From: Sphingomonas sp. J315
Lineage (GTDB): Bacteria > Pseudomonadota > Alphaproteobacteria > Sphingomonadales > Sphingomonadaceae
NCBI RefSeq assembly: GCF_024666595.1
Contig: NZ_CP088296.1
Location: 1,798,001 to 1,862,000 of the forward strand
DNA: 64,000 nucleotides
Reading direction: 5' to 3'
Within the stretch, counting starts at the first letter, position 1, and every line of letters starts with the position of its first letter. Both the position numbers and the translations under genes were made by a program. The notes under the pieces were generated by a model. That model had not been told where the DNA came from. It searched no databases and saw nothing but the letters and a program-made list of their open reading frames with translations. This document shows, piece after piece, positions 3,156 through 30,166 of this stretch.

Positions 3156-3832
3156 AGCTCGATCAGCCGGTCGGGCAGCTCGTTCTGGTCAGTCGCGGTT
3201 TTGGGGAAGTGCGTGGTCAGCACCGCGCCGATCCGCGTCACCGCATCGGCCATGCCGCCCGCCGGGTCGCCGGCGCGCACCTTGTCGACCAGCGCGACCA
3301 TCGCCTCGCCCCACACGCCTTCCTCGACCTTGGCCAGGATCGCTTCATCCGCGACGATCTCGGCGCGGTGTTCGGCAAGGCTGACATAGAGCAGCACGCC
3401 GACACGCGCGGCAGTGCGCTTTTCGGCGCTCGCCTTGAAGAACTGCACCGCGCGCCGCCGCACCCGCCGTCCGCGCACCGCTCCGGGGATCAGCACCCCG
3501 CGCATCGGCAACGCCTCGAAGCCGAAGCGCACGCCTAGGAAGACCAGCGCCTGAACCACCACCAGCAGCGCCAGCTGAAGATGCCGCTCCGCCTCCCCCC
3601 AACCGCCGGTGAACAACGCGAGCTTGGCGTCGAGCAGGTCGGGGAAGAAGGCGAACAGACCCAAGGCCGCCAGCATCGCCGCGCCGGCATAGTAAAGCGA
3701 GACATCGTGATAATGATCCGACCAGTCGGTGACAATTGTCACGATCTCGCCATCGGTACCGCGCTCAGCCTCCGCCACCGCAGCGGTGACGCGGGCATGT
3801 TCTTCAGCTGTAAAACGCCGTGCCATCACCAT
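3152..3832 (-). CDS. TPM-domain membrane protein (third TPM paralog of the cluster)
   Basis: 226 residues. An N-terminal stretch (residues about 1-40, RFTAEEHARVTAAVAEAERGTDGEIVTIV) resembles the start of TPM domains. Two hydrophobic segments follow (about residues 47-70 and 85-103), then a soluble region with VGVLLYVSLAEHRAEIVADE and KVRAGDPAGGMADAVTRIGAVL, typical of TPM-domain C-termini. The fold is therefore a TPM domain interrupted by a transmembrane hairpin. TPM proteins are linked to membrane-protein or photosystem repair in other organisms; the function here is unknown. Overlaps the upstream TPM gene by 7 bases and the downstream Nudix gene by 4. Confidence 0.75.
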   Translation of the reverse strand: MVMARRFTAEEHARVTAAVAEAERGTDGEIVTIVTDWSDHYHDVSLYYAGAAMLAALGLFAFFPDLLDAKLALFTGGWGEAERHLQLALLVVVQALVFLGVRFGFEALPMRGVLIPGAVRGRRVRRRAVQFFKASAEKRTAARVGVLLYVSLAEHRAEIVADEAILAKVEEGVWGEAMVALVDKVRAGDPAGGMADAVTRIGAVLTTHFPKTATDQNELPDRLIEL

Positions 3833-4638
3833 CCCCCCGATGCGCCGCCGCCACCGAAACCGCCACCGCCGCCGGAAAAACCTCCCCCGCCGCCAAAGCC
3901 GCCTCCACCACCCCAGGAGGAGCCACCGCCTCCGCCCCAGGACGATCCGCCGCCGCTACCCCAGCCGGGTCCCCAGATCACCACCGGCGCGCGGCCACGG
4001 CGATATTTCTTGCCGCGCGCCGCGCCGATGATGATCGGCAGCACGACGAAGATCAGGATCGCGAGCCAGAAGATCAGCACGATCAGGCCCGCGCCGTCTT
4101 TCTTGCGCGACTTGCCGCTGTCGATTAGCTGCTTGGCGCGCGCCTCAGCGGCTTCGAGCGGGAGCTTGAGTTGTTCGTTGATCGCGGTTGCGCCCGCCAT
4201 GATCCCGCCGGGCATGTCCCCATCCCTGAAGCGTGGGATGATCGTGTCGCGGACGATCATCCCCGACAGCGCGTCGGTCATGATCGGCTCAAGGCCATAG
4301 CCGACCTCGATCCGCACCTTGCGCTCATTGGGCGCGACCAGCAGGATGATGCCGTTGTCGGCATCCTTCTGCCCGATCTGCCACGTGCGCCCGAGCTTGT
4401 AGCCGAAATCCTCGATCGGATAGCCTTGAAGGTCCGGCACCGTGGCGACCACCAGCTGACGCCCGGTCGCCTTCTCGGTCGCGTCCGACATCGCGGTCAG
4501 CTCAGCCTCCTGTGCGGGGCTCAGCAGATTCGCCGCATCTACGACCCGCCCGGTCAGCTTGGGAAAATTCTGCGCCGATGCCGCCTGCCCCGCAAAGGCG
4601 GCGAGCAACAGGGCGAGAAGAAGGTGCATCAGCCTCAT
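3826..4638 (-). CDS. TPM-domain protein with signal peptide, membrane anchor and Gly/Ser-rich tail (YgcG-like)
   Basis: 270 residues. Residues 1-22 form a cleavable signal peptide (LLLALLLAAFAGQAASA). The periplasmic TPM domain (about 27-150) starts FPKLTGRVVDAANLLSPAQE and contains VRIEVGYGLEPIMTDALSG and TIIPRFRDGDMPGGI. One transmembrane helix lies near residues 190-210 (IVLIFWLAILIFVVLPIII), followed by a basic patch and a cytoplasmic tail almost entirely Gly, Ser and Trp. This is the architecture of YgcG-type proteins, often encoded next to lemA. Starts in a 4-base overlap with the preceding TPM lipoprotein gene. Confidence 0.88.
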   Translation of the reverse strand: MRLMHLLLALLLAAFAGQAASAQNFPKLTGRVVDAANLLSPAQEAELTAMSDATEKATGRQLVVATVPDLQGYPIEDFGYKLGRTWQIGQKDADNGIILLVAPNERKVRIEVGYGLEPIMTDALSGMIVRDTIIPRFRDGDMPGGIMAGATAINEQLKLPLEAAEARAKQLIDSGKSRKKDGAGLIVLIFWLAILIFVVLPIIIGAARGKKYRRGRAPVVIWGPGWGSGGGSSWGGGGGSSWGGGGGFGGGGGFSGGGGGFGGGGASGGW

Positions 4639-5144
4639 GGCGTTGCTCCGGGTACATTGATTTCACGGATGATCGCGGCGCTTCCGGCTAGAATGGCCCC
4701 GGACATGTTGCCCGATCGGATGCGCGGAATGATCGTGCGGGTGATAATCGCCTTTGCCTCTTCGTCGCGTAGCACGCCTTCGAGGCCATAGCCGACCTCG
4801 ATCCGCACCTGACGTTCATTGGGCGCGACGATCAGCATGACGCCGTCATCGACATCCACCCTACCGATACCCCATTTGCGACCCAGCTCCACACCGACGT
4901 CCTCGATCTTGCGGCCGTGCAGCGTCGGCAAGGTTACGACGACGAACTGGCCGCGCGTTGCGCGCTCGGTGGTCTGCAACGCACGGTCGAGCAGCGCCTC
5001 CTTGTCCGGCGACAGCAGGTCCGCCGCATCGACAACCCGCCCCGTCAGCGCGGGCAATGTCGGCGACGCATCCGGCGTCGACCCCGACCCTGCCGTCCCG
5101 CACCCGGCGAGGAGCAGGAGCGGCAGAAGGCGGTGCGCGATCAG
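4635..5144 (-). CDS. TPM-domain lipoprotein, probable CTG start
   Basis: TPM domain clear from LPALTGRVVDAADLLSPDKE through VRIEVGYGLEGVLRDEEAK to TIIPRIRSGNMSGAILAG. The first ATG/GTG/TTG in frame (TTG at 5057) would remove a good lipoprotein signal: upstream codons read HRLLPLLLLAGC, with lipobox LAGC. The only sensible start is CTG at 5142-5144, whose last two bases are the first two of the lemA stop (CTGA in place of the usual ATGA overlap), giving 169 residues. Exported, lipid-anchored domain; probable partner of LemA and the adjacent TPM proteins. Start choice is inference; the domain is secure. Confidence 0.8.
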   Translation of the reverse strand: MIAHRLLPLLLLAGCGTAGSGSTPDASPTLPALTGRVVDAADLLSPDKEALLDRALQTTERATRGQFVVVTLPTLHGRKIEDVGVELGRKWGIGRVDVDDGVMLIVAPNERQVRIEVGYGLEGVLRDEEAKAIITRTIIPRIRSGNMSGAILAGSAAIIREINVPGATP

Positions 5145-5725
5145 TTGCTGTTCCCGAAGTCCACCTTGGGCGCGGTGTCGGCGCCCGGCGTGGTCGCCTG
5201 GAACGGGGCCATCGGCTTGGCACCGTAGAAGATCTTGGCGCCGATCGCGTCGGGGAAGGTGCGGATGGTGGTGTTATAGCTCTGCACCGCCTCGTTATAA
5301 TCGCGGCGGGCGATGCCGATGCGGTTCTCCGTCCCCTCCAGTTGGCTCATCAGCGTCGCGTAATTGGCCTGGCTCTTGAGCTCGGGATAGGCCTCCTGCA
5401 GCCGCTGAAGCGACAGGGTCACGCCGGCCTGCACGCGGTCATAGGCGGCGAGCTTGGCGGGATCGGTCAGGTCGGCGTCGCTGACGCGCACCTGAGTCGC
5501 GGCGGCGCGCGCCTGCGTCACCTCGGTCAGGATCGCCTTTTCCTGTGCGCCCGCCGCGCGGACGGTGGAGACGAGATTGGGGATCAGGTCAGCGCGCCGC
5601 TGATATTGATTCTGCACCTCGGCCCATTTTGCCTTGGCAGTTTCTTCGGCGGTCGGAACGCTGTTGAGCCCGCAGGCGGACAGCATGGCCGCGGCAACCA
5701 GCGCGGCAACCAGACGAAGCTTCAT
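5141..5725 (-). CDS. lemA: LemA family lipoprotein
   Basis: 194 residues from the ATG at 5725. The N-terminus has a lipoprotein signal (VAAAMLSACG, lipobox LSAC). The mature part is the LemA helical domain: QNQYQRRADLIPNLVSTVRA, ALLTEVTQARA-like helix, then NYATLMSQLEGTENRIGIAR and YNEAVQSYNTTIRTFPDAIG, all LemA hallmarks. LemA proteins are extracytoplasmic helical-bundle proteins of unclear function commonly encoded next to TPM/YgcG proteins, as here. A longer reading from 5851 exists, but it adds a non-hydrophobic leader ahead of the signal peptide and is unlikely. First gene of a five-gene operon running to 2622. Confidence 0.92.
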   Translation of the reverse strand: MKLRLVAALVAAAMLSACGLNSVPTAEETAKAKWAEVQNQYQRRADLIPNLVSTVRAAGAQEKAILTEVTQARAAATQVRVSDADLTDPAKLAAYDRVQAGVTLSLQRLQEAYPELKSQANYATLMSQLEGTENRIGIARRDYNEAVQSYNTTIRTFPDAIGAKIFYGAKPMAPFQATTPGADTAPKVDFGNSN

Positions 5726-5745
5726 CGCGGTGAATCCCTCATAGT

Positions 5746-5765
5746 GTGTCGCATCCATACGACAC
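5746..5765. promoter_or_regulatory. Inverted repeat in the lemA leader
   Basis: GTGTCG-8 bases-CGACAC, a perfect 6-bp dyad 20 bases upstream of the lemA ATG, in the 143-bp divergent region between lemA and mscL. Position suggests an operator or a leader hairpin; no regulator can be named. Confidence 0.35.
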
Positions 5766-5868
5766 CGCACATTTAGGGGGCGCTCGGGTAGTGCGCAATG
5801 GAAACCGGAAATTTGCAGCGGAGCGAGGCGTTGGCTAGCCTCACCACGCACTCAAAGGGGGATCGCCC

Positions 5869-6303
5869 ATGCTCAACGAATTCAAGGCCTTCATTGCGCG
5901 CGGCAATGTGCTCGACCTCGCCGTCGCAGTGATCATCGGTGCCGCGTTCGGCAAGATCGTGACGTCGTTGACCGAGGACATCATCATGCCGGTAATCGGC
6001 AGGATTTTTGGCGGCCTCGATTTCTCCAGCTACTTTCTGGTGCTGGGCGACGTCCCCGAGAACCTTCAGGGATCGACCGACTATGCCGCACTGAAGAAGG
6101 CAGGCGTCCCGCTGTTCGGCTATGGCGAGTTCGTGACCCAGGCGGTGAATTTTCTCATCATCGCCTTCATCATCTTCCTGCTGATCCGCGCGGTGAACCG
6201 CATCGTGCCGAAGCCCGAAGCGGCGGCGCCGAGCGATCCGGCCGACGTGGTGCTGCTGCGTGAGATCAGGGACGAACTGCGCAAGCGGAACGAAAGCGCT
6301 TGA
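5869..6303 (+). CDS. mscL: Large-conductance mechanosensitive channel MscL
   Basis: 144 residues, normal MscL length. Starts [29 protein letters not shown], the amphipathic N-helix and first transmembrane helix that line the pore. The periplasmic loop is followed by the second helix ([20 protein letters not shown]) and a C-terminal cytoplasmic bundle ([12 protein letters not shown]). Acts in the inner membrane as an emergency valve under hypo-osmotic shock. AAAGGGGG precedes the ATG at a suitable distance. Transcribed away from lemA. Confidence 0.97.
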
Positions 6304-6334
6304 GTTGAGGAGGCACCGTCAGGCGCCAAGAAAA

Positions 6335-6766
6335 TTAGGCCGCCGCTAGATCCTCGGCGGTGGCATCCGCCAGACTGGTCCCGTCGAGGATGCGTGCGGT
6401 TTCGTCGCGTACCCGCGCCATGGCATGACGGATCGCGCACGCCGCCTCGTCCTTGCAGTCGAGGCAAGGGCGATAGGCGGTGCGGCTGACGCATGGCACC
6501 AGCGCCAGCGGCCCTTCGATCACCCGGATGATCTCGCCCAGCGAGATCAGGTGGTTGGCACGCGCGAGCCGGTAGCCGCCCATCTTGCCGCGCGTCGACA
6601 GGATGAACCCTGCTTCACGCAGATCGGCCAGGATCAGTTCGAGAAACTTGCGCGGCACATTCGCTTCGGCGGCGATCCGCGTCATCGGCGTCGGCGCGCC
6701 ATCCCGCGGCTGCTTCGCCAGAAACAGCATGGCGCGCAGGGCATAGCGAGAGCGCTGAGTCAGCAT
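6335..6766 (-). CDS. Rrf2 family transcriptional regulator
   Basis: 143 residues. N-terminal winged helix-turn-helix (LTQRSRYALRAMLFLAKQP, then VPRKFLELILADLREAGFI and the wing STRGKMGGYRLAR) is the Rrf2 signature. A cluster of four cysteines, PCVSRTAYRPCLDCKDEAAC, resembles the iron-sulfur-binding cysteines of IscR/RsrR/NsrR-like members, so a redox- or Fe-S-sensing role is plausible. The gene stands alone between mscL and ssrA; its target is not evident from context. Confidence 0.9.
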   Translation of the reverse strand: MLTQRSRYALRAMLFLAKQPRDGAPTPMTRIAAEANVPRKFLELILADLREAGFILSTRGKMGGYRLARANHLISLGEIIRVIEGPLALVPCVSRTAYRPCLDCKDEAACAIRHAMARVRDETARILDGTSLADATAEDLAAA

Positions 6767-6884
6767 GGCATGCTCTTTGCGCGCGGTTTATGGCGATGGG
6801 AAGGCCAAATCCCATCGTTCTTGTTAGATTTCGGCACCGACCCGCGCCAGAACCCGCTCTTTTCAATCGGATTTGGCGTCCCTA

Positions 6885-7155
6885 TATCGGTGAGGCCGGG
6901 TTCGCCCGGCTATGACGATAAATTGTGGCGTGCAATAGACGCAGCGGACCCGGGGGCAGTACCCGGCGGCTCCACCAGAAATGGTGGCTTTCTGGAGACC
7001 GTTTCTGACGGGGCCGAACCAGGATCGACGTGTGTTGAAAAGCGTTTCTTTCGTTCGGAATGGGACCACCGCGACGGCCCATACACACAAGTGCCAACGA
7101 TAACGAAGCACTCGCTATTGCGGCCTAACCCCAAGTCCTAACGGACTAAGGTTAG
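6885..7155 (+). ncRNA. ssrA: Transfer-messenger RNA, circularly permuted two-piece form (alpha_tmRNA)
   Basis: The acceptor piece comes first and ends GGCUCC-A-CCA at 6977. A T-arm (CCGGG, 7-base loop, CCCGG) precedes it and a GCCGGG-UUCG-CCCGGC hairpin lies at 6895-6910. After a 32-base internal spacer (6978-7009) the coding piece starts GGGGCC at 7010. GGGGCC pairs with GGCUCC, including G3-U70, the alanine identity element. The tag frame at 7093-7128 reads ANDNEALAIAA then TAA, an alphaproteobacterial-type degradation tag. A hairpin (TAACC..AGTCC/GGACT..GGTTA) follows the tag. Ends are approximate. Rescues stalled ribosomes with SmpB. Confidence 0.95.
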
Positions 7156-7176
7156 ACTAAAATGCGCGGTTGGACC

Positions 7177-7232
7177 GCACCGGGCAACAGAAGCGGATTC
7201 CAGCGGTACGGGGAGCACCGGGCAACAGAAGC
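7177..7232. repeat. Short direct repeat and hairpin just 3' of ssrA
   Basis: GCACCGGGCAACAGAAGC occurs at 7177-7194 and again at 7215-7232, 38 bases apart. The second copy is flanked by GGGGAGC and GCTCCCC (7210-7216 and 7231-7237), making a perfect 7-bp hairpin just past the stop of the convergent hydrolase gene. It may act as a terminator or be a remnant of an insertion at the tmRNA gene. Confidence 0.6.
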
Positions 7233-24694: not shown

Positions 24695-25893
24695 CCGTCA
24701 GGCGCCGGGTCGCGTTCGGCGCCGCCTTGCTCGCCCTCGCCGCGTGCGATTCGGGTGGGGTTGGCGGCGGCGTATCGACACCGGCGCCCAGCCCGACCGC
24801 GTCGCCCTCCCCTTCGCCGTCTCCCTCGCCCAGCCCCAGCCCCAGCCCCAGCCCCGCCCCGATCACCGGGGTCCGGACGACTGCGGTCGCGACGTTCGCG
24901 TCGCCCTGGGCAATGGTCTTCCTGCCCGATGGTCGCGCCCTGGTGACCGAAAAGGGCGGGACGTTGCGTATCGTGACGCAGACCGGGGTCACGTCCGCAG
25001 CCCTAGGCGGCGTTCCCGCGGTCGCGGCGGGCGGCCAGGGTGGCCTGCTCGACGTCGCCTTGCACCCGAATTTTGCGAGCAACGCGCTCGTCTATCTGAG
25101 CTTCTCCGAATCGGGCACCGGCGGGTCGGGCCTTGCGGTCGCGCGCGGAACTTTGGTCGAGGATGCGGGCGGTCCGCGCCTGACCGGGGCCAGCACGATC
25201 TGGCGCCAGACCCCCAAGGTATCGGGCAGCGGCCATTTCGGCGGGCGCATGGCCTTTGCCCCCGACGGCACGCTCTATGTCACTGCGGGCGAGCGCCAGC
25301 GCGGCAGCCCGGCGCAGGACATGGCGCAGACATTGGGCAAGATCATTCGGATCAATGCCGATGGGAGCATCCCCAGTGACAATCCCTTCGTCGCGACCAC
25401 AGGGGCGCTGACCGAAATCTGGTCGCTCGGCCACCGCAACCCCTATGGCCTCGCCTTCGATGCCTCAGGCCGGCTGTGGGAGCATGAGATGGGACCCGAG
25501 GGCGGCGACGAGTTCAACCTCATCACGCGCGGCGGCAATTACGGATGGCCGAACGTCTCCAACGGCCAGGACTATGGCGGGGGCAATATCCCGGACCATG
25601 CACCCGGCGACGGCTATGTCGCGCCCCTGCTGTCCTGGACCCCGGTGATCGCGCCGGGCGGAATGATTCTGTATTCGGGCACCCTGTTCGCCGCGTGGCA
25701 GGGCGACGCGATCATCGCAGGGCTGGTCAGTCAGGGACTGGTCCGCGTGCGCTTCACCCCGACCAGCGCGAGCGAAATGCAGCGCATCCCGCTCGGCGCG
25801 CGCATCCGTGAGGTCGAACAGGGGCCGGACGGCGCGATCTGGGTGCTGGAGGATTCGAGCAGCGGTCGGCTGCTCAGGCTGGTGCCGAACTAA
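24691..25893 (+). CDS. PQQ-dependent sugar dehydrogenase-like lipoprotein, copy 2 with Ser-Pro linker
   Basis: 400 residues. Signal peptide ends at a lipobox (ALLALAAC). A linker of alternating Ser and Pro (about residues 30-55) tethers the propeller to the membrane. The propeller repeats the features of copy 1: PWAMVFLPDGRALVTEKGGT, GHFGGRMAFAPDGTLYVTAGE, WSLGHRNPYGLAFDASGRLWEHEMGPEGG and REVEQGPDGAIWVLED. A tandem duplicate, translationally coupled to the first. The Ser-Pro linker is the main difference and suggests display farther from the membrane. Its last 20 bases overlap the convergent thioesterase gene. Confidence 0.9.
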   Translation: MTVRRRVAFGAALLALAACDSGGVGGGVSTPAPSPTASPSPSPSPSPSPSPSPSPAPITGVRTTAVATFASPWAMVFLPDGRALVTEKGGTLRIVTQTGVTSAALGGVPAVAAGGQGGLLDVALHPNFASNALVYLSFSESGTGGSGLAVARGTLVEDAGGPRLTGASTIWRQTPKVSGSGHFGGRMAFAPDGTLYVTAGERQRGSPAQDMAQTLGKIIRINADGSIPSDNPFVATTGALTEIWSLGHRNPYGLAFDASGRLWEHEMGPEGGDEFNLITRGGNYGWPNVSNGQDYGGGNIPDHAPGDGYVAPLLSWTPVIAPGGMILYSGTLFAAWQGDAIIAGLVSQGLVRVRFTPTSASEMQRIPLGARIREVEQGPDGAIWVLEDSSSGRLLRLVPN

Positions 25894-26272
25894 TCAGGAA
25901 ATTCATCCGCGCCGCCGCGACCGGACGCTCGGGATCATCCTGCCACGCGAACGCCTCGACATTGGCGACCCGGTTGCCGAGACGGCTGACCTTGCCCTGT
26001 GCGCGCGTCACCTTCTCACGCCCGCCGCGCATGAAATCGACGGTGACGTTGACCGGCTTGATCCGGGACTGCCCGCGCCCGTCCGCCGCCAGCGCGTGTT
26101 TGAGCGCTGCGATCGCCGCCATCTCCAGCAATCCCGACAGCGCGCCGCCATGGACGAAGCCGGGGCGCCCCAGCACGCCGCTGCCGAACGGCATCGCCAG
26201 CACCGGCGCGCCGTCGCCAGGCTCGATCACAATACCGATCGTCTCGGCATAGGGCGGGAGGGTGAAGCTCAT
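25874..26272 (-). CDS. PaaI-family hotdog thioesterase, copy A
   Basis: 132 residues, single hotdog domain. FGSGVLGRPGFVHGGALSGLLEMAAIAALK holds the PaaI-type catalytic segment (HGG followed by an acidic residue four to five positions on). VNVTVDFMRGGREKVTRAQGKVSRLGNRV forms the later strands. Probable acyl-CoA thioesterase, with substrate unknown, in the cytoplasm. Downstream of a second thioesterase with a 4-base overlap, so the two may act together or as a heteromer. Confidence 0.88.
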   Translation of the reverse strand: MSFTLPPYAETIGIVIEPGDGAPVLAMPFGSGVLGRPGFVHGGALSGLLEMAAIAALKHALAADGRGQSRIKPVNVTVDFMRGGREKVTRAQGKVSRLGNRVANVEAFAWQDDPERPVAAARMNFLISSAPA

Positions 26273-26703
26273 GCCGACGCTTCCATGAACATGAAGGTGC
26301 CGGCGACATGCGCGACCGGATCGTTGGGATCGCCATCATGCGCGATGCCGCGCACGAAGCCGACCGATCGGGTGATCCGATAACATTCGCCCCGCCCGAT
26401 CACCGTCTGCCCAGCCGCTGCCGGGCGCAGATAGTCGACGCGCAGGTCGAGCGTCGCATGCGGCAGGAACCCGCCCCGCTTCATCCACACCGCGACGCTG
26501 GTCGCCATGTCGAGCAACGTGATGATCGGCCCCGACGCCAGCACCCCGCGCTCGACATCGCCGATCAGCCGCGAATCGAAGGGCAGCGCCAGCTCGCACC
26601 AGTCCGTGCCATGCGCGCGATAGCGGATGCCCAGCGCATCGCCATGTCCGCCGACGCGGCGCGCGAAGAACATTGCAGGGTCGAAGGGCGTCGGTGCCGT
26701 CAT
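26269..26703 (-). CDS. PaaI-family hotdog thioesterase, copy B
   Basis: 144 residues from the ATG at 26703 (MTAPTPFDPAMFFARRVGGHG). Hotdog features: RLIGDVERGVLASGPIITLLDMATSVAVWM, then LRVDYLRPAAAGQTVIGRGE and VGFVRGIAHDGDPNDPVAHVAGTFMF. At the catalytic site the HGG of typical PaaI proteins is replaced by GVLASG, followed by Asp in LLDMA. The upstream extension to 27000 is a shadow of the small-peptide gene. Coupled to copy A by an ATGA overlap. Confidence 0.86.
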   Translation of the reverse strand: MTAPTPFDPAMFFARRVGGHGDALGIRYRAHGTDWCELALPFDSRLIGDVERGVLASGPIITLLDMATSVAVWMKRGGFLPHATLDLRVDYLRPAAAGQTVIGRGECYRITRSVGFVRGIAHDGDPNDPVAHVAGTFMFMEASA

Positions 26704-26829
26704 GGGCAGCGCGCTAGCTGGCGCGCGCCTTCGCCGCAACCCGGGGCACGCCGCAACATAAAGTGGAATTAACTCAGCCCAAGGCCCGCACCGGCCTAGC
26801 TTGGGCCTACCAACAATGGGGGACCGACC

Positions 26830-26970
26830 ATGCTGACACTCGCACTGTCCGACATCGCTTCGCTTGGCACCCAGGTCGCGATGCACGGCTCGATCCGCGC
26901 CTCCGAAGTCGCCGGGGACGAGATTTTCGAGATGATGGTGGCCATCGTCGTCATCGTTTACGAAGGCTGA
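26830..26970 (+). CDS. 46-residue peptide, possible precursor or membrane peptide
   Basis: Reads MLTLALSDIASLGTQVAMHG in the first 20 residues and ends EIFEMMVAIVVIVYEG. GGGGGA lies six bases before the ATG, a good ribosome site. The N-terminal part is mildly amphipathic; residues 31-43 are very hydrophobic (IFEMMVAIVVIVY) with an acidic flank (GDE before, EG after). No cysteines. Ten bases later comes a HEAT-like protein gene, followed with a 4-base overlap by a cupin-HEAT protein gene. Short length, hydrophobic C-terminal half and tight linkage to a putative oxygenase would suit a modified-peptide precursor, but it could also be a small membrane protein. Family not recognised. Confidence 0.6.
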   Translation: MLTLALSDIASLGTQVAMHGSIRASEVAGDEIFEMMVAIVVIVYEG

Positions 26971-26980
26971 AGCCGCGTAC

Positions 26981-27844
26981 GTGTCAACCGCCGCCGCCAA
27001 CGCCGCCTTTGCAGAGTCGGTTCAACTCGCAATCGCGCCGCGCTTTGCGGGTCTTGCGGATGCCGACGCGGTGCTGGCGGCGGCGCGTGCATTGCTCGCC
27101 GACCATGTGTGGATCGCCGATCTGATCGCGCCATTGGTCGACCACTTGCGCACCGATCCGTGGTTTGATCCGGCGCTGCGTTTCACCCGCGATGTCCTGC
27201 GCACGGCGGTTGTCCTCGCCGACCTGCCCGAAGTGACGCTGACCGCCAGCGTCACCTCCGCCGCAGCGTTGGCGCAGCTAGCGCTTCCCGCGACGGTAGT
27301 GCTGTCGGGCCGTCGCGCGCTCACCCGCTATGTCCGTGCCGACGGGGCGCAAATGCGGCGATGGCGGCTGGCCGACGACGCGCCGCACCGCTGTGTCGAG
27401 GTCGCACCACTTCACCTTCGCGATGGCGAACTGATCGCACTCGACGGGGGGCGCGAGGGGCGGCTGATCGTCGCCGCGCCGCGCGATGTCGTCGCGATCA
27501 CCGCAACCGCCAAGCCGGGAGCCGACGCGCTGATGCACGAATTTTCGACCAGCGATGGCCACCACGTCCGCAGCGCCACCGCCGACGACCGCGCCTCGCG
27601 CGCCGAACTACTGCTCGCGCTGCTGCGCGCCAGCGGGCGGAGCGACGCGGCCGACAGTTTCGACGCGATCAGCCGCGACTCTGCGTTTCACCTGCGCTGG
27701 GCGGCGATGCGCGAATGGCTGATGCTCGACGCACGCGCGGCGCGGCCCCGGCTCGCGGAGATGGCGGCGAGTGACCCCGATCCCGGGGTACGCAGCGCCG
27801 CCGCCCAGACGCTCCAGCGGCTGGACGCACGGATCGCGGCATGA
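26981..27844 (+). CDS. Uncharacterised helical/beta/HEAT-like protein
   Basis: 287 residues from GTG 26981. I do not recognise a family. Three parts are visible: a helical N-terminal region (residues 1-75), a beta-rich central region (about 75-185, LPATVVLSGRRALTRYV, HLRDGELIALDGGREGRLIV), and a C-terminal helical region resembling HEAT repeats (FHLRWAAMREWLMLDARAAR, then PDPGVRSAAAQTLQRLD). The order is the same as in the next gene's product, but no HxH metal site is present, so it may be a non-catalytic partner. Ten bases downstream of the peptide gene; overlaps the next gene by ATGA. Confidence 0.75.
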   Translation: MSTAAANAAFAESVQLAIAPRFAGLADADAVLAAARALLADHVWIADLIAPLVDHLRTDPWFDPALRFTRDVLRTAVVLADLPEVTLTASVTSAAALAQLALPATVVLSGRRALTRYVRADGAQMRRWRLADDAPHRCVEVAPLHLRDGELIALDGGREGRLIVAAPRDVVAITATAKPGADALMHEFSTSDGHHVRSATADDRASRAELLLALLRASGRSDAADSFDAISRDSAFHLRWAAMREWLMLDARAARPRLAEMAASDPDPGVRSAAAQTLQRLDARIAA

Positions 27845-28770
27845 CCAGGATCATCGATCCGGGTCCGGGCGGCCCGATGACACTCGACGAACTGGTCGAC
27901 GCGCTGGAGACGACACCCTTCGATCCGCATGACGAGGAAAGCTTCGCGGCGCTCGGCCCGCTGCTCGCCCGGCTGGGGCGCAATCGCGCCTTCCTCGCCG
28001 ATCTCGCCATCGCCGAACTCAAGCAGCGCTGCGCCGGGCAGAGCGCCGCCAATGGCTATGGTGCGCAGGTTTTCCTGCTGCGCCCGCCCAATGCCCGCTT
28101 CGTGCTGCGCGCCAATTTTTGGCCCTCACATGACGATGGCATCCTCCAGGCGAGCGGGACCGCGCCGTTCGTCTATGGGATGGCGCACGATCACAATTTC
28201 CCGTTCCTGACCTATGGCTATCTCGGCCCGGGCTATTGGAGCGATTATTGGGAGCGCGACCCCGATCGCCCCGAGGACCCGATGCGCTTCACCGGACGAC
28301 GGCGGATCGAGCCAGGGCAGCTGGCGCTCTATCGCATGCGCCGCGACGTCCATGCGCAGCTGCCGCCCGACGCCTTCTCGGTGACGCTCAACATCTTGGG
28401 CAGCCACCCATCGCACCGCTGGATCGACCAGTATCGCTTCGACCCGACGACTGGCGGAATCGCCGAAGTGCTCACCACCGCCCCCTCCGAAGGGCTGGCG
28501 ACGATCGCCGCGCATCTCGGCGGCGGCAACGGGCTCGACCTGATCGACCATCTTGCCCGGCGTCACCCGCATCCCCGGATGCGCGCCACCGCAGTTGCGG
28601 CGCTGGCGTCGGCGCGGCCCGGCGATCCGGAGGCGCTGACGCTGATCGCGCGCGCCGTCCCCGACCACCCCGTTTTGGATGCATCTTCGGCAGACAGGGT
28701 GCTGCCGGCCCGCGCAATAACATCGGGTGGCCCCGGTGATTCTGTCCGAAGTCGAGATACCGCAGCTTGA
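27841..28770 (+). CDS. Cupin-like putative metal enzyme with C-terminal HEAT-like repeats
   Basis: 309 residues. Helical N-terminus, then a cupin-type beta domain (about 75-185): VYGMAHDHNFPFLTYGYLGP gives H116-x-H118, GYWSDYWERD follows with E138, and IEPGQLALYRMRRDVHAQLP supplies the second cupin motif with H171, then an Asn after SVTLN. These fit a mononuclear-metal three-His or His/Glu site. The C-terminal part (HPRMRATAVAALASARPGDP) looks like a HEAT repeat. Possibly an oxygenase or hydroxylase acting with the preceding protein on the small peptide; this is inference from architecture and linkage. No named family recognised. Confidence 0.75.
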   Translation: MTRIIDPGPGGPMTLDELVDALETTPFDPHDEESFAALGPLLARLGRNRAFLADLAIAELKQRCAGQSAANGYGAQVFLLRPPNARFVLRANFWPSHDDGILQASGTAPFVYGMAHDHNFPFLTYGYLGPGYWSDYWERDPDRPEDPMRFTGRRRIEPGQLALYRMRRDVHAQLPPDAFSVTLNILGSHPSHRWIDQYRFDPTTGGIAEVLTTAPSEGLATIAAHLGGGNGLDLIDHLARRHPHPRMRATAVAALASARPGDPEALTLIARAVPDHPVLDASSADRVLPARAITSGGPGDSVRSRDTAA

Positions 28771-29347
28771 GCGCGCGATGCACGCACGTGGCTATGTTCT
28801 AAAGATCGGGGCGCTGGAGGTCGGCGACCCGGTGCCCGATCCGGCATCGCATGTCGCAGCAATCCTGTGCCGGTGGCGGACCGGACAGGCGATCGCGGCA
28901 GGATCGGTCCCGCGCATCGCACTCGCCAGCAACAGCGCGGCGCTGATCGCCGCACTCGATGCGGGCGCGTCCGACGCCGTCGCGGTGCCGGTCGATCCCG
29001 ACGAGCTGGCCGCGCGAGTCGACCTCCGCGTGCGCCGACATGCCGCCATCCCGCTCAGTGTCGGTGCGCTGACACTCGATCCGGTCACGCGCACCGTCAT
29101 CCGATCGGGCAGCCGCATCAGGCTGGTCCCGCGCGAATTCGCACTGCTCCGCTACCTCGCCGAGCACTCCGGCCGCTTCGTCACCCGCGCCGAGCTGCTC
29201 GAAGGCGTCTGGAATCTGCACTTCGACCCCGGCACCAATGTCGTCGCGGTGCACGTCTCAAACCTGCGCGCCAAGCTCGACCGGCCCTTCCCGACGGCAA
29301 TGGTCCAGAGCTGCAAGGGGCTAGGCTATCGCCTCGTTGCTGGTTAA
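28727..29347 (+). CDS. OmpR/PhoB-type winged-helix regulator with degenerate receiver domain
   Basis: Up to 206 residues from GTG 28727; an internal ATG at 28778 is another possible start. The C-terminal winged helix is clear: IRLVPREFALLRYLAEHSGRFVTRAELLEG, then VVAVHVSNLRAKLDRPF and GLGYRLV. The N-terminal half keeps the end of a receiver fold (ALDAGASDAVAVPVDPDELAARVDLRVRR), but the phospho-acceptor Asp region is lost and the conserved Lys before Pro is Val, so it is a pseudo-receiver that cannot be phosphorylated in the usual way. Overlaps the cupin gene by 44 bases, suggesting one operon. Confidence 0.82.
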   Translation: MAPVILSEVEIPQLERAMHARGYVLKIGALEVGDPVPDPASHVAAILCRWRTGQAIAAGSVPRIALASNSAALIAALDAGASDAVAVPVDPDELAARVDLRVRRHAAIPLSVGALTLDPVTRTVIRSGSRIRLVPREFALLRYLAEHSGRFVTRAELLEGVWNLHFDPGTNVVAVHVSNLRAKLDRPFPTAMVQSCKGLGYRLVAG

Positions 29348-29380
29348 CGTCCGCGTCAAGCAAAGCCGAATGGAGCGGAT

Positions 29381-30166
29381 ATGACCGAACAGCGCGTGAC
29401 CATCGACATCGCCAATGGCATCGCCGACGTCCGGCTGGCCCGGCCCGACAAGATGAACGCGCTCGACCCGGCAATGTTCGCCGGGATTGCGGGCGCAATC
29501 GACCAGCTGGCCGCGACGCCGGGGCTGCGTGCGGTAGTGCTGTCAGGCGAAGGCAACGCCTTCTGCGCCGGGCTCGACATGGCGAGCATGGCAGGCGGTG
29601 GCACCGGGCTCGACATCCATGCGCGCAGCCATGGCGAGGCCAATCTGTTCCAGCAGGTCGCCTGGGGCTGGCGCAACCTGCCCGTCCCCGTCATCGCGGC
29701 GGCGCACGGCGTCGCGTTCGGCGGCGGATTTCAGATCCTGTCCGGGGCCGATATCCGCGTCATGGCACCGGATACGCGCTGCTCGATCATGGAGATGAAG
29801 TGGGGGATCGTCCCCGACATGGCCGGATTCGCGCTGTGGCGGACGACGGTGCGCGACGATGTGCTGCGCGAGCTGACCTATACCGCGCGCGAATTCCTTG
29901 CCGAGGAGGCACTGGCGCTGGGCTTCGTCACCCACATCTCCGACGCGCCCTATGCCGCAGCGATGGACATCGCTGCCGCGATCGCCGCGCGCAACCCTGA
30001 CGCGATCCGCGCCGCCAAACGCCTCGCCAACCTGTCCGCTGACGCCAGCGCTGGCCCGATCCTCGCCGCCGAGAGCGCCGAACAGGCAAAGCTGCTCCGC
30101 TCGCCCAACCAGATGGAGGCAGTGATGGCAAACATGCAGAAGCGCACGCCGAAATTCACCGACTGA
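29381..30166 (+). CDS. Enoyl-CoA hydratase/isomerase family protein (crotonase)
   Basis: 261 residues. Crotonase fold: VRLARPDKMNALDPAMFAGI, VVLSGEGNAFCAGLDMASM (first oxyanion-hole strand) and VIAAAHGVAFGGGFQILSGAD (second oxyanion-hole region). MEMKWGIVPDMAGF replaces the hydratase Glu pattern with an isomerase-like one, so the exact reaction is uncertain. Acts on acyl-CoA in beta-oxidation-like pathways. Next to a thiolase gene on the same strand, 67 bases apart. Confidence 0.88.
   Translation: MTEQRVTIDIANGIADVRLARPDKMNALDPAMFAGIAGAIDQLAATPGLRAVVLSGEGNAFCAGLDMASMAGGGTGLDIHARSHGEANLFQQVAWGWRNLPVPVIAAAHGVAFGGGFQILSGADIRVMAPDTRCSIMEMKWGIVPDMAGFALWRTTVRDDVLRELTYTAREFLAEEALALGFVTHISDAPYAAAMDIAAAIAARNPDAIRAAKRLANLSADASAGPILAAESAEQAKLLRSPNQMEAVMANMQKRTPKFTD

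Follow-up and report, generated by a model that had tools for sequence, protein, structure and literature searches.

Thiol dioxygenases of the CDO_I family (PF05995), among them cysteine, 3-mercaptopropionate and mercaptosuccinate dioxygenases, carry a Ser-His-Tyr catalytic triad according to a published description (PMC10966181). Among the pathways to ribosomally synthesised and post-translationally modified peptides (RiPPs), a biphenomycin-like pathway contains PbsQ, a cupin-like protein which hydroxylates a ribosomal peptide and is described as related to the JmjC protein BpmG (PMC12257519). Multinuclear iron enzymes that act together with partner proteins are also known in RiPP pathways. 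Here we describe an operon of a short peptide and two larger proteins, B and C, in a stretch of 64,000 nucleotides from Sphingomonas sp. J315 (contig NZ_CP088296.1, positions 1,798,001 to 1,862,000), which as a whole is called the window. We interpret this operon as a candidate RiPP-like locus built around an active and a dead protein of the predicted thiol-dioxygenase fold.

The ORF listing of the window confirms the compact unit of three open reading frames (ORFs) that had been delineated beforehand from the nucleotide sequence alone, in what is called here the sequence-only reading. All three lie on the plus strand. The peptide gene (46 residues, positions 26830..26970), which encodes the proposed precursor, stops 10 bases before the GTG start of gene B (287 residues, 26981..27844), and B overlaps gene C (309 residues, 27841..28770) by ATGA, both as described in that reading. 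A ribosome site is indeed present before the ATG of the peptide (TGGGGGACCGACC), which had been called good and which we grade by eye as fair.

Loci were collected from 61 genomes, 80 named genome contigs, a sample of the class (385 genomes) and a sample of the family to which the window genome belongs (397 genomes, 96 genera). C was found in 8 of the 61 genomes, the window's own included, and in all eight a small ORF was read 5' of B. Five genomes of the class sample are positive; in the family sample the genes are common, with 137 genomes and 46 genera positive, yet they have no family name. Scattered members occur in other Proteobacteria. A match to B lies just 5' of C in 121 of 122 loci, and the exception, L013, also has B, which a later hidden Markov model (HMM) recovered from a longer sequence of that site (L140). 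For the peptide, an HMM seeded with 11 peptides from these loci and grown on its own matches hits the same strand within approximately 700 bases 5' of B in 113 of the 121 loci at E < 1e-6 and the opposite strand in none of the 121. Because the model was trained on the same loci and the 121 include single records fetched twice (the distinct C proteins number 107), the opposite-strand control outweighs the E-values. At six of the eight loci beyond the threshold a similar small ORF can be seen by eye, namely at L102 (E 0.009), L088 and L109 (0.085, sharing one C protein), L081 (0.84), L121 (4.5) and L008 (no HMM match), and at L086 the contig starts at B, which cuts off the upstream region. The peptide gene is under purifying selection, with ratios of nonsynonymous to synonymous substitution (dN/dS) of 0.07-0.37 in eight pairs of 46-51 codons, one of which is near saturation at silent sites. 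The small ORF on whose conservation beside B and C homologues the sequence-only reading depended is therefore conserved, and a short gene of the RiPP precursor type adjoins the candidate modifying enzyme at these 113 loci. We regard it as almost certain that peptide, B and C are functionally linked.

Structure prediction places a thiol-dioxygenase (cysteine dioxygenase) fold in the centres of both B and C, followed by helical HEAT-like tails; in C the cupin would span residues ~ 8-213 and the HEAT-like part residues ~ 215-275. Apart from residues 3-5 of C, which form a short strand, the N-termini are helical in the models, and the predicted folds agree with the order of helical N-terminus, beta domain and HEAT-like C-terminus that had been assigned to both proteins. 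For C a cupin pattern HxH...E...H formed by H116, H118, E138 and H171 had been suggested. Its three histidines hold: all 64 aligned homologues have His at these positions, which correspond to HDH and H in two CDO_I proteins, and they are the proposed metal ligands 1 and 2 (H116 and H118, codons at 28186..28194, plus strand) and 3 (H171, codon at 28351..28353, plus strand). E138 is Glu in 48 and Asp in 7 of the 64 homologues and, being variable, is not a constant ligand. A four-ligand cupin was rejected for C on account of this variation, and the site appears to be of the three-histidine thiol-dioxygenase type. At the place of the Ser-His-Tyr triad of CDO_I, in an alignment with two CDO_I proteins only, C has S180 (64/64), Ser (63) or Thr (1) at position 182 and N184 (63/64). 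None of the metal histidines of C is conserved in B, which identifies B as a pseudo-enzyme paralogue. B and C are homologous across the C-terminal half (hhalign probability 95%), and together with the common predicted fold and the restriction of the histidines to C this bears out the catalytic/pseudo-enzyme pair that the sequence-only reading had suspected. A sequence-level link to cysteine dioxygenase was sought with hhalign and not found (0.15% for C and 0.10% for B), the profile containing two CDO_I sequences only.

In Pfam the window proteins B and C have only sub-threshold HEAT matches and in NCBIfam none, while a relative of B at L073 exceeds the HEAT_2 cut-off. The 64 C proteins match 16 Pfam families at E up to 1, a limit at which the HMMER filters drop most matches above 0.1; neither PF05995 nor DUF692 is among these families, and PF05995 has no match in the window's own genome. 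Beyond the HEAT matches, which are weak for the window proteins, Pfam and NCBIfam assign B and C to no named family, in line with what had been expected of them, and for the peptide and the catalytic domain no curated family was found above its cut-off. A RiPP recognition element, the peptide-binding domain of many, not all, RiPP classes, was matched in neither B nor C of the window by Pfam or NCBIfam, and no dedicated search for such elements was made. Some NCBI records name C "transposase". No such domain was found in B and C of the window (Pfam, NCBIfam) or in the 64 C proteins, and the name is apparently a propagated misannotation. An anti-phage defence system was considered and rejected, as eight proteins gave 0 PADLOC matches at E up to 0.1. 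The C protein of Alteromonas has no match in the phage collection.

The 94 aligned peptides share the consensus I-D-x3-[IL]-x-[ED]-L-x-T-x-V-[AG]-x2-G at residues ~ 4-21, in which L12 is kept in 91, T14 in 85 and G20 in 88 peptides, and continue into a variable hydrophobic C-terminal half (residues ~ 22-46). Mean pairwise identity is 0.41 for residues 5-21 and 0.27 for residues 22-46. The N-terminal half is thus the more conserved one, as in a conserved leader with a variable core, which is one of the patterns that the sequence-only reading had named in its favour. A larger set of 223 distinct peptides (the 94 aligned, 11 hand-picked and 120 database matches listed, with repeats removed) leans in its database part to one clade with "EVGG", so that the percentages taken from it are not unbiased. 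Within the last 22 residues of these peptides Val occurs in 100% (rounded), Ile in 98% and Cys in 59%; 84 of them, the window peptide included, are free of Cys. In 87% of the set the C-terminal half exceeds the N-terminal half in hydrophobicity, and the mean net charge is -4.2. A database search with the peptide gave 600 homologues, and among the 120 matches listed all named ones but one are called "hypothetical protein". The window peptide has no match in Pfam or NCBIfam, and the NCBIfam matches in the 94 peptides are scattered, the best being to a glutamate synthase model (E 0.0015, 4 of 94). Peptide identity tracks the identity of C (Spearman 0.71) and of B (0.72) across 85 loci, with ancestry not controlled. 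Four genomes carry two loci apiece; for all 8 of these loci, the pair of loci with the nearest peptides and the pair with the nearest C proteins overlap in one locus or more.

We therefore favour, with somewhat better than even confidence, the interpretation that the operon is a RiPP-like biosynthetic locus in which one thiol-dioxygenase-fold protein is active and its paralogue dead. The sequence-only reading had proposed a candidate peptide-modification system, and the conserved small ORF, the lack of a named family and the enzyme/pseudo-enzyme pair support it; the modification of the peptide itself is putative. The peptide is likely the substrate of the system. We propose that the B/C pair binds the acidic, conserved N-terminal half of the precursor, and that C acts as a mononuclear iron oxygenase with a thiol-dioxygenase fold and a three-histidine site. 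B, as the catalytically dead paralogue, would most likely hold the precursor or complete the active complex, while C might oxidise a target within or next to the hydrophobic Val/Ile-rich C-terminal half. Release of the product, presumably by cleavage, would follow, in some lineages a linked transporter may export it, and a DNA-binding regulator of the OmpR type, or a sigma factor in another clade, would control the operon. More tentatively, at odds slightly short of even, we speculate that this is a new RiPP class that relies for modification solely on a three-histidine iron oxygenase with the thiol-dioxygenase fold and on its dead paralogue, and which in cysteine-free precursors oxidises a non-thiol residue or an aliphatic side chain without 2-oxoglutarate. 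To our knowledge, such an oxidation is not known chemistry for this fold.

Several observations weigh against a RiPP-like pathway. No modified product is known for the system, and B and C of the window match no RiPP family in Pfam or NCBIfam. The window operon contains neither a protease nor an exporter, the C39 peptidase family has no match in the window's own genome, and many loci have housekeeping neighbours only. B and C are present with no peptide ORF at L087, and at seven distant loci (L137-L143) the HMMs find B and C and no peptide at E 0.01. Each of these seven has at least one small ORF 5' of B, most with a Val/Ile-rich end, but these were chosen by eye among several and constitute weaker evidence. 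Since only Val reaches a rounded 100% in the last 22 residues, the reaction is not readable from the sequences.

Directly downstream, gene D (206 residues, 28727..29347, plus strand) overlaps the end of C and encodes an OmpR-type winged-helix protein (Trans_reg_C, E 1.3e-21), a probable regulator in which a receiver domain can hardly be discerned (Response_reg only at E 0.2 in Pfam). In 80 named neighbourhoods, called with a simple gene caller of our own that produces some wrong-strand shadows, the BLAST family of D turns up in 41. Nine have an ECF sigma family, and nine have a further small protein that matches nothing over a cut-off. Regulators vary between clades while peptide, B and C remain together. 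Exporter genes accompany the operon at few loci. On a plasmid of Alteromonas stellipolaris (L137), two small peptide-like ORFs (unannotated and recognised by eye) begin a row that continues with B, C, an ABC ATPase whose gene overlaps C, and an ABC-2 permease, and HlyD, ABC and MacB-type genes lie upstream. Genes for an outer-membrane factor, an ABC protein and HlyD are located 3' of C at L084, and the ABC BLAST family of that locus recurs at L082 and L085, where an additional peptide and a third B/C-family gene are also present. Families 24 and 46 were considered as linked exporters at L075, L080, L083 and L091; they lie on the opposite strand and were not counted. Export by C39 transporters was likewise rejected: the family has matches in 15 of 44 hand-picked genomes, which by our own count are 11 of the 24 that carry the operon and 4 of the 20 that lack it, with genus not controlled. 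Five of the seven chosen g348 genomes, whose examined peptides mostly carry "EVGG" or "EVAG", have C39 matches, and the match nearest to an operon was seen ~ 15 kb away (G788).

The frequent linkage to the D and ECF sigma families would also suit an oxygen or redox sensor, in which C would bind iron and oxygen. Jointly with B it would control the peptide, here taken as a signal or a small regulatory molecule, and thereby the linked transcription factor; the peptide would be a partner or effector rather than a substrate. The thiol dioxygenase ADO has been described as an oxygen sensor. Nevertheless, we consider a sensor unlikely, because the regulators differ among clades although peptide, B and C stay joined, because the peptide is highly variable in its C-terminal half, and because exporter genes or additional peptide copies occur at L082, L084, L085 and L137. 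A little less probable still is that B and C form a complex with the peptide as a small subunit that stays unmodified, and that the true substrate is a different molecule, e.g. a small thiol, or an acyl compound handled by the products of the adjacent thioesterase and enoyl-CoA hydratase genes. The fold and the three-histidine site resemble those of small-molecule thiol dioxygenases, and acyl-CoA genes flank the window operon, with their BLAST families recurring in many Sphingomonas loci; in other clades, however, these neighbours are absent, and a structural subunit would not usually have a hydrophobic end of such high variability or be encoded twice at a locus, as the peptide is at L082, L085 and (by eye) L137.

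The Val/Ile-rich, mostly more hydrophobic C-terminal half and the tight linkage to B/C could further be explained by a toxin-antitoxin type of system, in which the peptide is a membrane-active toxin that B and C neutralise or sequester. We regard this as improbable: sequestration needs no invariant oxygenase-type site, PADLOC gives no match, and the peptides are acidic, unlike typical type I toxins. Least of all do we expect plain oxidation of cysteine to sulfinic acid in the peptide by C, as in thiol dioxygenases. Cys is frequent in the last 22 residues, and position 121 of C, near the HxH, is Ser in 28 of 29 proteins paired with peptides having Cys there compared with 8 of 56 others (Pro in 38, Asp in 9), an association that is a lead only, taken from alignments in which ancestry is not controlled. 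The triad position of C reads Ser-Ser/Thr-Asn, on the other hand, and due to the 84 cysteine-free peptides plain cysteine sulfination cannot be the general reaction and is ruled out as such.

Further features of the window and of remote loci are as follows. A scan of 26600-29500 found no sigma-70 promoter and no terminator, and Rfam at gathering scores has no match near the operon. Two tandem thioesterase (4HBT) genes on the minus strand (25874-26272 and 26269-~26703) are divergent from the peptide operon, and their BLAST family is found in 58 of the 80 neighbourhoods. At lower positions lie tandem glucose/sorbosone-dehydrogenase genes (GSDH, PF07995; 23492-24694 and 24691-25893) that overlap by 4 bases, the second with a Pro/Ser repeat near its N-terminus. 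An alphaproteobacterial tmRNA is located at 6856-7201 (Rfam). A short pair of B and C was found by HMM at L139, where an AcrB-type efflux pump gene (3731-6931) lies upstream of the short peptide/B/C operon. On a Vibrio plasmid (L166), a gene assigned to B from its position is followed by a short gene resembling C (23.5% identity, E 1e-4), and a different short ORF (6551-6823) lies 3', not 5', of this short B/C-like pair. The operon at L141 (4707-6422) sits between genes which we take to be yidC and yihA/engB, and a gene that is presumably yidC is close to the operon copy at L163 (8611-10407).

Among the literature matches listed, no paper was found on this operon or on a RiPP enzyme of the thiol-dioxygenase type, nor one that joins cysteine dioxygenase, RiPP and precursor peptide, most subscription journals being outside the scope of the search. 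Read as a RiPP-like locus, the operon resembles several described systems in part. C probably has the cupin fold and the three-histidine site of the thiol dioxygenases as well, as judged from prediction and alignment, but differs from them by its HEAT-like tail and by being encoded with a site-less paralogue and a peptide. From the ADO/PCO N-terminal cysteine dioxygenases it is distinguished as a bacterial operon enzyme with HEAT-like repeats, whose peptides lack Cys in 84 of 223 cases. As described for MNIO (DUF692) RiPP systems, a peptide, an iron-type oxidative enzyme and a partner protein occur together; in contrast to MNIO proteins, C would have a cupin fold with a single three-histidine site, and its partner is a paralogue of the enzyme. 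PbsQ is described as JmjC-related; C would belong to the thiol-dioxygenase type, with HxH...H, and no other candidate enzyme is encoded in its operon. If C modifies the peptide, a thiol-oxidising fold has turned into a RiPP enzyme acting on often cysteine-free peptides with a dead paralogue as partner, and relative to the known RiPP oxidative systems the operon is possibly a variant that forms a new class.
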